The notes below the pieces were generated by a model. The model did no database searches and was not told where the DNA came from. It saw nothing but the letters and a program-made list of their open reading frames with translations. A program made the translations under genes and the position numbers. Shown piece after piece: positions 9,811 to 13,342 of a DNA stretch of 47,841 nt. This stretch comes from Labilibaculum filiforme (lineage in GTDB: Bacteria; Bacteroidota; Bacteroidia; Bacteroidales; Marinifilaceae): assembly GCF_002843315.1 (NCBI RefSeq), contig NZ_MVDD01000025.1, positions 1-47,841 of the forward strand. The letters run 5' to 3'. The stretch's first letter is position 1, and each line of letters starts with the position of its first letter.

Positions 9811-9897
9811 GTAAGCTTTACGACTAAAGACCTTTAGTCGACTTACAGAAAAAATATATAAAAATCCGGTTCATTTTATGAACCGGATTTTTTTAAT
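9811..9897. terminator. tandem hairpins, second one a bidirectional terminator
   Basis: The first hairpin has CGACTAAAG (9821-9829) pairing with CTTTAGTCG (9832-9840), with an outer GTAAG/CTTAC. The second has AAAATCCGGTTCAT (9861-9874) pairing with ATGAACCGGATTTT (9878-9891), followed by T-rich sequence and preceded by A-rich sequence. They sit between converging dcp and the tetR-type gene. Confidence 0.85.
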
Positions 9898-9944
9898 AGT
9901 ATTTATCAGCTTCCACAAATAAAATGCAAATCCATTCGTATCAA

Positions 9945-10532
9945 CTAATCATCAATTTCAGCTTTTTTACTGTACATGTTTAATACTTTCTGTTGCATTT
10001 CATCAATTGGATAGCCATCAGGTTCCAAAACATAATTCATTGCAATACCATCGAGCATCGAGGCCAAAAAACGCATTTCCATTTTTGGATTCTCCGCTCC
10101 TTCTTTTCTGAAATAATCACTAATTACCTCAAAATTAGAATTCACAATTTCGCGCAACTCCTGTTTATACTGATGAACAACCCCAGGCTGCAATCTTAAC
10201 GAATAAAATAGACTGAAAAAGTCCAGGTTTCGAGCAACAGAATCAAAATAATCATTAATAAAAAATAGCAATTCAACTTCCAACAGCTCGCCATCCTGAT
10301 TCGGATCTATTCCGTCGAATATTAAATGTACCGCCTCGGCAACAATGGTGTGAAGCAAATTTTCTTTCGTTTCAAAAAGAGAAAATAACTTTTCTTCACT
10401 AACACCTGCTTCGCTTGCAATTATAGCTCCAGTAGTTGAGAAATAACCATCGCGCACAAAAATTTCCAACGCAATGTGAAGAATTTCTTTCTTTAGTATT
10501 TTATCTGCAGTTTTATTTTTTGTTGCTCCCAT
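9945..10532 (-). CDS. TetR/AcrR family transcriptional regulator
   Basis: A 195-aa TetR-type regulator. The N-terminal three-helix DNA-binding domain (about residues 10-58) has the signature KKEILHIALEIFVRDGYFSTT, then IASEAGVSEEKLFSLFETKENLL. The all-helical ligand and dimer domain (about 75-190) shows no diagnostic ligand residues. Typical members repress a neighbouring efflux or lipid gene, but no such gene is adjacent: dcp is convergent and the upstream 443 bp hold only relic sequence. The target is unknown. Confidence 0.85.
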   Translation of the reverse strand: MGATKNKTADKILKKEILHIALEIFVRDGYFSTTGAIIASEAGVSEEKLFSLFETKENLLHTIVAEAVHLIFDGIDPNQDGELLEVELLFFINDYFDSVARNLDFFSLFYSLRLQPGVVHQYKQELREIVNSNFEVISDYFRKEGAENPKMEMRFLASMLDGIAMNYVLEPDGYPIDEMQQKVLNMYSKKAEIDD

Positions 10533-10975
10533 AACCTTAAGTTTTAAGAATTAAGCCTCTACTTTCCTTCAAGTTACAACAGAATTTCACTTATTTCCAA
10601 AATATAATAAGAAGAATGTATTTTTAGTGCAAGCAGAAGACACCATTTTAAAGTAATATTCACTCTATCTTCTACTAATTAATTTCAATCATAAAAAATA
10701 ACTTAACATGAAAACTAAGTTATTCAAAGAGTTTAACAATGATGGGCTTATCTAATTAAACAGCCGGCATTTGGAAATTACCGACCGCGAACGCCTTGAA
10801 CGTATTTGTGAGAATGGTTAATTCTGCCTCTATTTTTTCAAAGCCTTTACCAATCTATTAATTGAGATCATGACAAAATTGCTAATCATATTTTCATTAG
10901 CTTAAAATCGATTTTAGATGTAAGATTTTGGCAATATCTGTTTTGATTATTTAAGATTACTTTGTTAAATTTAAA
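10533..10975. other. gene-poor interval with eroded coding fragments
   Basis: 443 bp without an intact gene. An ATG at 10709 opens only a 15-codon frame (MKTKLFKEFNNDGLI). After its stop, the same strand reads NSRHLEITDRERLERICENG (about 10759-10818) in a patch noticeably richer in G+C than its surroundings. It looks like worn coding sequence of unidentified origin. The 3'-end relic of the YkgJ-type gene lies at 10830-10892. The remainder is AT-rich leader for the 255-aa gene. Confidence 0.45.
10830..10892 (-). pseudogene. 3'-end relic of a YkgJ-type gene (second copy of the 12072-12605 gene tail)
   Basis: Read on the minus strand this gives NFVMISINRLVKALKK and a TAG stop, against DFDMISMNRLVSDLKG and a stop at the end of the intact gene 1242 bp away. 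The DNA aligns without gaps over 10838-10880 against 12080-12122, about 32 of 43 bases by hand. Only the last codons are present, and an in-frame stop lies a few residues upstream of the homologous segment. The match of both peptide and stop position makes chance unlikely, but the segment is short. Confidence 0.55.
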
Positions 10976-11743
10976 GTGCATAACAAACCTATACATAAAG
11001 TGAATAAAAATCTCGTAAGCATCCGACCTCAATTACTTACCAATATTCAAAACATCGCATTAAAAGATATCATTACCCCCACCATTCCAATTGCCATCTA
11101 CCTTCAAGAGATTGAAAACATTGCCGTGTGGGCTACCGACGATTTAACTGCGTTAAACAAAGTAGGTATCACTGCTAATCATATTAAGGATTTAAAGGAT
11201 CGCATCAATGCCTGTCGCAGCTTTCAAACAGAGTGGTTAAAATTGAAAAATATAAAGCCGACAAAACAGAAAGAATGTGAAGAATTAAGACATGTGGCTA
11301 GCAAACAAAGAGATGAACTTGTATTCATCTACAGATATGCATTTAGAAATAATATCGCAGCCCTTAAAGAAATAAAGGCTATTAATAAGAAAAATACAAC
11401 GGCAGAACTTGTTGCAACTTTGGCTAATTTGATCAGAATTGGCAGAACCTACCCAGAACTACTCGAAAAAATCTCTTTTGATTTCACCCAACTTGACAAG
11501 GGAAAAGAACTAGGATACAAATTACAAGGTCAACATTCTGATTTTGTAACTACCACACCAGAAAAGGATAAGATAAAATATTTACGCGATAAATCGTACA
11601 CCCACCTTAAGCACTTGGCGGATGATATAAAAAATGCGGGCAAATTTGTATTTGCAAAAAATAAGGAACGACTGAAAGGGTACGAAATAGCATACTACAA
11701 AAAGAAAAAGGCATATCTTAAAGAAAATGTGAATTCACAATAA
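10976..11743 (+). CDS. uncharacterised helical protein, 255 aa
   Basis: No named family recognised. The protein is soluble, mostly alpha-helical and basic. It has an N-terminal region with IYLQEIENIAVWATDDLTAL (about 42-61), a Lys/Glu-rich middle, and a conserved-looking C-terminal helix, LRDKSYTHLKHLADDIKNAGKFVF (about 205-228), before a Lys/Tyr-rich tail. There is no signal peptide, membrane span or catalytic motif. The start is GTG and no ATG is available upstream in frame. The gene sits between the two copies of the YkgJ-type gene tail and just before the 20-bp phased array, so it looks like cargo of whatever event made that duplication. It has no operon partner. Confidence 0.75.
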   Translation: MHNKPIHKVNKNLVSIRPQLLTNIQNIALKDIITPTIPIAIYLQEIENIAVWATDDLTALNKVGITANHIKDLKDRINACRSFQTEWLKLKNIKPTKQKECEELRHVASKQRDELVFIYRYAFRNNIAALKEIKAINKKNTTAELVATLANLIRIGRTYPELLEKISFDFTQLDKGKELGYKLQGQHSDFVTTTPEKDKIKYLRDKSYTHLKHLADDIKNAGKFVFAKNKERLKGYEIAYYKKKKAYLKENVNSQ

Positions 11744-12071
11744 TCGAAAGAAAGGATAATTTTTGCCAATAGGAATAGATTTATCACTAAAACTACCGCC
11801 TTTCCCTGTTTCATCCTATATTTCCGATATTTTAGTCAGCTTGCTCTTTAATTTTGCATCTTTCCGTGTTTATTACAAGATTTCCCATTTTTCAACTCTC
11901 TTTCTCGGAAAGATTACGATATTTTGGGAAAGACTCTATATTTTACGGAAAGACTATACATTTATTGAAAAGAAATTATTTTTTAAGGAAAGACTAAAAA
12001 ATTTATAGAAATAATGATTTTTTGATCTTAAGAGTATCACAATTGGGAGTTTTTATATTCCCTTTGGTAAA
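11744..12071. other. intergenic interval carrying the mirror-symmetric phased array
   Basis: 328 bp between the 255-aa gene and the convergent YkgJ-type gene. About two thirds of it (11801-12011) is the 20-bp phased repeat array described separately. No hairpin followed by a T-run and no Bacteroidota -7 box was seen here. An 81-codon frame crosses the array but is probably fortuitous. Confidence 0.6.
11801..12011. repeat. mirror-symmetric array of 20-bp phased repeats (TTTCC arm, then GGAAA arm)
   Basis: Left arm: TTTCC begins at 11801, 11821, 11861 and 11881, with degenerate forms at 11841 (TTGCT) and 11901 (TTTCT). Right arm: GGAAA begins at 11907, 11927, 11947 and 11987, with degenerate forms at 11967 (GAAAA) and 12007 (AGAAA). 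Every step is exactly 20 bp, and each left element mirrors a right one about base 11906. Right-arm units read on the minus strand share TTTCC, then an AAAATAT-like core, then AGTC or similar (for example TTTCCGTAAAATATAGAGTC). Left units keep TTTCC but have more varied interiors, so this is not one long perfect hairpin. Twenty is not a multiple of three, so protein repeats do not explain it. Phased protein-binding half-sites or a decayed minisatellite inverted at its centre are possible. Confidence 0.8.
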
Positions 12072-12605
12072 TTAACCTTTCAAATCACTCACCAATCTAT
12101 TCATCGAGATCATATCGAAGTCGCCAAATTTTTCAGCTTCATAATTCTTCACGAATTCTTGATTAATTAGGAACAATTTACTGTTGTAGGTATCCTGAGG
12201 ATAAGTGTTTTCGCTGTGAAAATCATCAAATGCCGTAAAGTTGAGCGGACAAGTAGATAATTCCCATTCATCTCCATCTTGACTCATAAACAGTAATGGC
12301 AAACCATGTGTGCGACAAATAAAAGGTCGCGATTGATAAATTTGGCACAAATCATTAATCAGAAAATTACAATCGTCGGCTTCTTCATCCAGCTCCCGAT
12401 ACTCTTTTGGGGGATTTGCTTTCAATTCCTGTAGAATACTGAAATACTCCACCGGCAAAACCGAAAAATGCATGCAACACTCCGAACAACCTTTTTTACA
12501 AGCCATTTCCTCTTTATGTAATTTGGCTAACTTCTCACTCAATTCGCTCACTTCGTTTCTTAGTGCGCGGTATCTTTCTAATTCGTTTTGTGCCTTGTCG
12601 TTCAT
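12072..12605 (-). CDS. YkgJ-type cysteine-cluster (putative zinc/iron-chelating) protein
   Basis: A 177-aa protein with the family's cysteine cluster CKKGCSECC (about residues 36-44), followed by spaced cysteines in DDCNF, NDLCQIYQSRPFICRTHG (about 86-101) and STCPLNF. These are the expected ligands for a bound metal ion or cluster. The N-terminus (1-35) is a charged coiled coil. Biochemical function is unknown; the family is broadly annotated as Zn/Fe-chelating. It lies 41 bp downstream of sfsA on the same strand, so co-transcription is likely. A diverged copy of its last codons lies at 10830-10892. Confidence 0.85.
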   Translation of the reverse strand: MNDKAQNELERYRALRNEVSELSEKLAKLHKEEMACKKGCSECCMHFSVLPVEYFSILQELKANPPKEYRELDEEADDCNFLINDLCQIYQSRPFICRTHGLPLLFMSQDGDEWELSTCPLNFTAFDDFHSENTYPQDTYNSKLFLINQEFVKNYEAEKFGDFDMISMNRLVSDLKG

Positions 12606-12646
12606 GTTCTATTTATTTAGAATCGCAAAAATACATATTTGCAAGT

Positions 12647-13342
12647 TTATTCCAATTCAAAAGGCAATAGTTCTCCCAATTTTATCTCGTAGGGCGTCAC
12701 AATTGCCCGAATGGGATAAAGCTCTACTCCATTTTCGTAAGCTTCTTTTAAGGTTTTTGCATATTCAGGATCGATATCCGATGCAGGAGCGAATTTAGTA
12801 ACATCTGTTCGTTGAATCACATAAACCATCACCGCTCTTTTGCCTTCTTTTTTCACTTGCATTAAGGTAGTTAAGTGCTTTTTTCCACGAGTGGTTACAG
12901 CATCCGGGAAACGAGCATACTCCTCCACTTTCATACTCACATTTTTCACTTCTATAAAGCACTCTTCCTGTTCATTCGAGGCAAAAACATCGAATCTACT
13001 ATCGTCGAATTTCACCTCTCTTTTTACGAACGAATATCCTCTTAAATCATCAATTTGTTGATTTTTCACCGCTTCGTAAACCAACAAATTCGGAACGGCA
13101 GTATTAATTCCTACCCAAGAATCGTTAATTTTTATCATTTCCCAGGTGTATTTTGTTTTCCGTTTGGGATCATCCACGTAAGTGAGATAGACTTCGGCCC
13201 CTTCCTCCAAACAAGATTTCATACTGCCCGAATTTGAAGTATGCGCCACAACAATTTCCCCATTATCCAATTCAACATCCGCTAAAAATCTTTTGTATCG
13301 CTTTATTAATCGTCCGTGAACTAGTTTATTGGGAAAAATCAT
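12647..13342 (-). CDS. sfsA: SfsA family protein (sugar fermentation stimulation protein homologue)
   Basis: 231 aa, the normal SfsA length. The N-terminal OB-like part contains GRLIKRYKRFLADVEL and VAHTSNSGSM (about 10-41). The C-terminal part has a restriction-endonuclease-like core, with Asp in SRFDVF and Glu and Lys in CFIEVKNVSM (about 115-136), then the conserved FPDAVTTRGKKHL (about 144-156). E. coli SfsA was described as a DNA-binding regulator of maltose genes, while the fold suggests a nuclease; the true role is unsettled. It is first in a pair with the YkgJ-type gene and divergent from the ATP-grasp-like gene. Confidence 0.93.
   Translation of the reverse strand: MIFPNKLVHGRLIKRYKRFLADVELDNGEIVVAHTSNSGSMKSCLEEGAEVYLTYVDDPKRKTKYTWEMIKINDSWVGINTAVPNLLVYEAVKNQQIDDLRGYSFVKREVKFDDSRFDVFASNEQEECFIEVKNVSMKVEEYARFPDAVTTRGKKHLTTLMQVKKEGKRAVMVYVIQRTDVTKFAPASDIDPEYAKTLKEAYENGVELYPIRAIVTPYEIKLGELLPFELE

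Follow-up and report, generated by a model that had tools for sequence, protein, structure and literature searches.

Members of a large, unstudied protein family are encoded beside arrays of short DNA motifs repeated about every two helical turns. The arrays are phased and linked to the family, their motifs change more slowly than the spacers between them, and in two subclades the spelling of the motif tracks the C-terminal tail of the adjoining protein. Judging from sequence comparisons, we consider it probable that each array provides the DNA-binding sites of its adjoining protein, which would contact them via its C-terminal helix.

Results

To characterize the array, we analyzed contig C25 of the 5.2-Mb genome of Labilibaculum filiforme (G000), which in its whole length of 47,841 nucleotides is called the window here. 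The original prediction described two opposed arms of six 5-bp sites each, with a 20-bp step and an axis at base 11906. This description was borne out: 55 of 60 bases match, and the same place (11801 to 12011) scores best on a mirror-symmetric 20-bp grid in the 47.8-kb window (Table 1). One thousand dinucleotide shuffles of positions 11701 to 12110 reached a maximum of 34/60 (mean, 26). TTTCC is exact at 11801, 11821, 11861, and 11881 and inexact at 11841 (TTGCT) and 11901 (TTTCT); GGAAA is exact at 11907, 11927, 11947, and 11987 and inexact at 11967 (GAAAA) and 12007 (AGAAA). Even the weak positions 11841 and 11967 had been said to pair. They do so in the window, where both are fourth from the axis, but the mirror placement is not kept in the relative G017, whose weak sites are the left fourth and the right third. 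At the left weak position, the seven aligned TTTCC arrays read CTTGCT in four cases (the window, G017, and both arrays of G003), CTTGTT in one, and CTTTCC in two. Given these spellings, the weak left site is inherited and not a product of random decay. Within the genome of the window, exact CTTTCC pairs build up an array only in the window; the three other matches comprise two in one coding sequence and one single intergenic pair.

Table 1. Positions of the array, the adjoining gene, and neighboring features in the window
Feature	Position	Strand	Description
Diverged second copy (76 to 81%) of the CxxCxxCC gene 3' end	10826..10879	-	blastn against nine relatives
Gene of the 255-aa helical protein (P0001)	10976..11743	+	From the ORF list; family member in the window
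P0001 C-terminal tail, residues 237 to 255	11684..11740	+	Predicted helix; candidate recognition element
Left arm	11801..11905	-	Six TTTCC on the + strand (GGAAA on the - strand), 20-bp step, four exact
Array center	11901..11911	.	TTTCTCGGAAA; in relatives a perfect or near-perfect dyad TTTCC-N-GGAAA
Right arm	11907..12011	+	Six GGAAA, 20-bp step, four exact
Gene of the CxxCxxCC (PF03692) protein	12072..12605	-	Convergent neighbor; 3' end is the proposed insertion point

The array is placed between the gene of the 255-aa protein and a convergent gene of a CxxCxxCC-domain protein, whose named relatives come from Labilibaculum, Marinifilum, and other Marinifilaceae. Two copies of the final 54 bp of the CxxCxxCC gene are present in the window (10826 to 10879 and 12078 to 12131), forming a direct repeat around the gene and array. 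A similar duplicated pair of gene ends is found at locus L034, and at L027 the CxxCxxCC gene is followed directly by sequence equivalent to window positions 10718 to 10885. Because the gene end is duplicated on both sides, the gene and array seem to be one insertion at the 3' end of the CxxCxxCC gene. This site may be an insertion hot spot, as it is filled by approximately 3.5 kb of other sequence at L020, L021, L022, and L024 (ORFs were read at L024). A promoter and terminator scan of positions 10500 to 12700 gave counts at the shuffle level, and a simple terminator scan found none between the 255-aa gene and the array in the window. Farther upstream, an inverted repeat of approximately 56 bp (9849 to 9904; 81%) lies between convergent peptidase M3 and TetR genes and is possibly a two-way terminator.

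When 56 genomes of the taxonomic family were searched by DNA similarity and by pattern, six TTTCC arrays besides that of the window came to light. Absence of an array from the orthologous place in every relative would have counted against the original prediction; we found one there in G017, adjoining a 65% identical gene, and one in G001 (contig C214), where the contig ends approximately 10 bp past the last site. The orthologous place has no array in seven of the nine relatives fetched via the neighbor gene. It had also been asked whether every copy lies next to a homologue of the 255-aa gene. The TTTCC spelling need not: two of the seven arrays have such a neighbor, one is at a contig end, and for four (two each in G003 and G001) the sequence read contains no family gene. 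Among the four, the arrays at G001 C746 and G003 4622121 have common flanks, and the others are at G003 5498098 and, more weakly kept (43/60), at G001 C800. Of all TTTCC arrays, the best kept (56/60) belongs to the gene-less pair in G003, the other of which scores 50/60, and none of the six family members examined in that single-contig genome has the TTTCC motif (a fragment at 3660205 was left out). The two G003 places (C1:4622121 and 5498098; L029 and L030) have approximately 415 bp around the array in common (81%), so copying of the array does not require that of the gene. Pattern or DNA matches in G018, G012, G033, and G071 had chance-level scores. As a side observation, about a third of the G003 chromosome (C1:3.47 to 5.55 Mb) holds the listed family matches, both orphan TTTCC arrays, and the best gene of the PQLLE family (see below), whereas the family matches of G007 are spread.

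The label of orphan cargo gene given earlier to the 255-aa gene did not survive a wider search. The gene belongs to a multicopy family, with arrays at 85 of the 90 loci that we examined (L035 to L124). Family matches, from 1 to 9 per genome with fragments included, occur in 22 of the 56 genomes of the taxonomic family; with the window's genome counted each time, they occur in 17 of 295 genomes sampled in the order and in 2 of 296 sampled across the phylum. The window's genome also contains a broken copy (C5:65667 to 66314), which matches in three short pieces, one with an internal stop.

Known families gave little guidance. Pfam returned no match above the cutoff for the window protein and, for 46 members, scattered matches in one or two members each, none of them convincing; PHROGs gave a single weak match (phrog_6664) in 1 of the 46 members, and neither PADLOC (five proteins) nor a sequence search of PDB gave anything convincing. 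No viral contig matched P0001, and no plasmid or phage matched the one member used as the query (L051). An AF2 model built from two sequences is all-helical at a mean pLDDT of 57.9, with a predicted helix at residues 230 to 252 at the C terminus of P0001 (pLDDT under 50), and Foldseek with this low-confidence model found no match at an E value of ≤0.001. DUF6261, which we had taken to be the name of the family, was dropped, as there was no such Pfam match and the literature match was unrelated. A full-text search of PMC, which covers few subscription papers and bioRxiv preprints, gave no account of an array-linked family among the papers listed.

We then looked for arrays beside all members with a phased 8-mer log-odds search, setting the threshold at the best score of 381 dinucleotide shuffles (28.5). 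A downstream array exceeded this threshold in 85 of 90 members and an upstream array in none. Of another 37 loci, sampled in the order as a second set, 26 had an array (21 downstream and 6 upstream, one locus having both), and 11 had neither. When the search was run with a wrong period (26 to 28 bp), 6 of 127 downstream regions still passed 28.5 (highest score, 37.1); a few weak array calls are thus due to chance, and second-set scores of 28 to 38 are uncertain (L160, L172, L175, L178, L182, and the upstream array of L154). The detector allows only 20- to 22-bp gaps and their multiples, so the gaps that it lists cannot serve as independent evidence of the period. Such evidence comes from autocorrelation, for which we used lags of 8 to 60 in the 520 bp 3' of each gene, with no period assumed. 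The top lag was 20 to 22, 40 to 43, or 60 in 88 of 90 members; on the 5' side this was the case in 8 of 88, the chance level.

The 86 arrays that passed a first threshold (25) comprise 40 two-arm arrays, with the arms cleanly separated in 33, 24 one-arm arrays, and 22 arrays of near-palindromic units. One-arm arrays start 14 to 49 bp past the stop codon in 18 of 24 cases. The strongest lag is 41 to 42 in some arrays, and a few alternate with this period. The spacers contain an AT-rich patch roughly a helical turn away from the motif center (71 to 84% in one-arm arrays). Motifs are different between paralogues and common or similar in close relatives. One array (L082) was first assigned TTAAAAAT and by eye consists of GCAG units as in L079; AT-rich motif assignments such as those of L039 and L057 are equally unsure. 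The window's genome has a gene-less CAACAGG array with a 41-bp internal amplification at C1:572068 to 572218 (L196 to L202), beside a gene that is presumably rmuC. CAACAGG is the motif of the resident paralogue L084 and was found in the L084 array and at this place, where the outer units have CATCAGG, which is how the motif is spelled with another tail type.

Arrays of a similar kind adjoin the genes of PQLLE proteins (NCBIfam NF052641), a family that is, as far as profile matches tell, distantly related to that of the window protein. The window protein scores 21.7 bits against NF052641, below the curated cutoff of 80, and the profile weakly matches 26 of 46 members of the array-linked family. 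PQLLE proteins are likewise helical looking and multicopy, and they occur in the same genomes. We examined 17 of the 22 matches over the cutoff: a 20- to 22-bp phased array above 28.5 was 5' of the gene in 14, 3' in one, and on neither side in two. In the window's family, by contrast, the array is 3', with 5' arrays at L177, L181, L183, and L186 (members in G431 and G621). Given these 5' arrays and those of PQLLE, the side of the array is flexible and adjacency is the rule.

Within an array, spacers are mostly unrelated while motifs match. Between related loci, we compared 18 hand-picked, nonindependent pairs: motifs differed at 134 of 1,312 bases (10%) and spacers at 533 of 2,174 (25%), a 2.4-fold slower change of the motifs. 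Motif change was not below spacer change in four pairs (L046/L047, L068/L071, L091/L123, and L115/L117). The spacers of aligned pairs differ by point changes, with no turnover. In a generic Mantel test, protein and motif correlated overall (rho = 0.249; permutation maximum, 0.108), but not significantly so at identities below 60% (0.115; permutation maximum, 0.130).

In two subclades, the protein stretch that tracks the motif is the tail. In the one-arm clade, whose 18 loci were dereplicated to 15, the residue that follows a conserved S-[ED]-Y (p1) fixes motif bases 2 and 3: Q goes with AA, G or A with TA, L with GA, and I with AT, a rule equaled by none of 20,000 permutations. Equal p1 residues had equal bases in 21 of 21 pairs and unequal residues had unequal bases in 80 of 84 pairs, the four exceptions all combining G with A. 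Lysine at p4 is accompanied by C at base 4, and other residues by T (13 of 20,000 permutations were as good). Two tail columns, 274 and 278 (p1 and p5), came out on top in a scan of 182 variable columns (z = 7.2 and 5.0); the third-best column is outside the tail (z = 4.9). Six one-arm members have bodies up to 96% identical and sites that mostly read CAACTGG, CTACGGG, or CGATAGG (or one-letter variants), and it is the last dozen residues that track the motif among them. In four pairs with bodies 93 to 96% identical, p1 differs and the motifs differ with it. L096 and L105 both have L at p1 and the motif CGATAGG, with bodies at 55% and no spacer homology (z = -0.1). In the pair L112/L073, the spacers align and the motif letters differ, the unit-shuffle test of homology being weak (z = 1.5).

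A second clade consisted of 15 hand-picked loci with hand-registered motifs (L049, L055, L107, L109, L113, and L114 were among those left out). Here, column 278 (p5) ranked first of 178 (z = 6.2), with L going with ATA, V with TTA, and M with GTG in four of five cases. L050 and L080, whose bodies are 92% identical, have tails with L (ATA) and V (TTA), respectively. The code is specific to subclades: in L116 and L176, an L at p1 is instead combined with CTAATGAC. It cannot hold at the PQLLE loci that we read, as their C terminus is nearly constant although the motifs vary. When columns were scanned across the whole family with a generic motif similarity, the tail did not stand out: column 221 came first (r = 0.27), and tail columns 244, 249, and 239 were among the next six. 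As the tail adjoins the array, old coinheritance of the gene's 3' end and the array can mimic covariation, and this physical linkage may inflate the tail effect. In P0001, the columns p1, p4, and p5 are occupied by Y241, K244, and K245.

Discussion

The reading that best fits the phased lags (88 of 90 members) and the conservation of the motifs is the one first proposed for the window, in which a single kind of protein is predicted to occupy one DNA face along both of the opposed arms. The C-terminal helix of each protein would insert at a 6- to 8-bp motif, and about 6 to 12 copies per array would sit two helical turns apart on one DNA face, with opposite polarity in the arms of two-arm arrays. 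With one protein per two turns, the array would be coated cooperatively. We infer direct binding of the helix to double-stranded DNA. Because the tails and arrays of paralogues have diverged within one genome, each protein would be addressed to its own locus.

Other readings explain parts of the pattern. If the array served only its own gene, as an operator or 3'-end control element, it should adjoin that gene, as it does in 85 of 90 members; by eye, some one-arm arrays are preceded by the stop codon and followed by a terminator-like hairpin, and PQLLE arrays are mostly 5' of the gene. However, the array of the window's family is 3', several two-arm arrays lie past a terminator-like hairpin (by eye), 6 to 12 phased sites exceed what an operator needs, and gene-less arrays persist. 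The argument from terminators is not applicable in the window, where none was found between the gene and the array. Control of the adjoining gene alone is therefore unlikely, and in the window's subfamily the 3' position speaks against the operator suggested earlier. A gene and array that move together, the array being an end or a recombination site, would account for the direct repeat of the neighbor's 3' end that brackets the unit both here and in G017, for the patchy presence among relatives, and for the 415-bp segments without a gene in G003. Yet Pfam recognized no recombinase in the protein, the single query had no plasmid or phage match, the array is inside the unit rather than at its ends, and the flanking repeats are old (76 to 81%), so we regard a mobile cassette as improbable. 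A decayed minisatellite, or symmetry by chance, had also been considered, and the region is AT-rich with 4 of 12 units inexact. With the observed match so far above the shuffle maximum and the array kept across species, this has next to no chance of being right; the minisatellite in particular is rejected because motifs agree from unit to unit whereas most spacers do not.

The arrays could also act as RNA, with transcribed repeats bound by the protein and spacers serving as guides or in a structural role, on the pattern of TIGR-Tas systems. TIGR arrays lie on either side of the gene of a small protein, have locus-specific repeats and a terminator, and most often contain 5 to 15 units (PMC12045711). 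The arrays studied here resemble these in being locus specific and beside a small protein gene. Some have their strongest lag at 41 to 42, most one-arm arrays (18 of 24) begin shortly past the stop codon, and 18 one-arm clade loci have one orientation in common. TIGR units of 36 nt have two alternating repeats, edge and loop, of 8 to 12 nt with 9-nt spacers (PMC12045711), which we did not find; our arrays have one motif per 20 to 22 bp. An RNA product and a Nop domain are further TIGR-Tas features in that account, and 25 of the 26 Pfam families matched by the 46 members included no Nop domain. The spacers, with their AT-rich patch and point changes in aligned pairs, are unlike free guide spacers. 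In two-arm arrays, the motif is on both strands, so that recognition of both would be needed, and the opposed arms, cleanly separated in 33 of 40 such arrays, argue against binding of single-stranded RNA. We consider an RNA array very unlikely.

Binding of the protein to DNA has closer parallels in plasmids. In type II plasmid partition, ParR binds the centromere parC, which in pSK41 consists of 20-bp repeats; the array-linked family is similar in having a small, here predicted, DNA-binding protein and sites about two turns apart near its gene. It differs in being chromosomal, in having several paralogues per genome with different sites, and in its opposed arms. Pfam found no actin-like or ParA-like ATPase of a ParMRC motor in nine window proteins (the 255-aa protein and eight around it), and ParR has a ribbon-helix-helix fold; our model of the protein is all-helical and of low confidence (mean pLDDT, 57.9). 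The centromere-like reading of the window array stands as an analogy. Plasmids with iterons and Rep proteins have direct repeats about two helical turns apart beside the gene of the binder, and divergence avoids cross talk between them. Here too, the repeats adjoin the gene of a putative binder, but the sites are in opposed arms, the one query had no plasmid match, and no replication initiator domain is among the Pfam families listed for 46 members. A more distant likeness is offered by the TAACTGA heptamers, intergenic direct repeats of a 7-mer in Beggiatoaceae and five Bacteroidetes (PMC4679880). In the main genome, they lie mostly just before start codons, and the available part of their description has no 20-bp phasing or linkage to one family (PMC4679880).

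What coated arrays might do for the cell is a matter of conjecture, and our favored guess is orthogonal DNA tethering. A coated array could be an orthogonal bridging or tethering point, like a centromere or handcuff, with paralogues diverged because cross-bridging is harmful; this is possible but somewhat doubtful. We see it as a good possibility, if short of probable, that the arrays are self-addressed chromosomal tags, in which dozens of paralogues would read private arrays via a C-terminal helix with a simple residue-to-base code, coat the DNA at every second helical turn, and hold their loci, or sister loci, together without cross talk.

A family with no Pfam model and up to nine matches per genome is thus tied to a DNA structure that can be tested by gel shift. 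It raises the question of why one bacterium needs several private, phased, and often two-armed arrays across its chromosome. If the proteins bind as proposed, they would provide about a hundred pairs of protein and array, counting orthologues, that differ in specificity and in which a few residues correspond to a few bases. And if the arrays are self-addressed tags, the residue-to-base code would make the family a natural set of orthogonal DNA-binding scaffolds.
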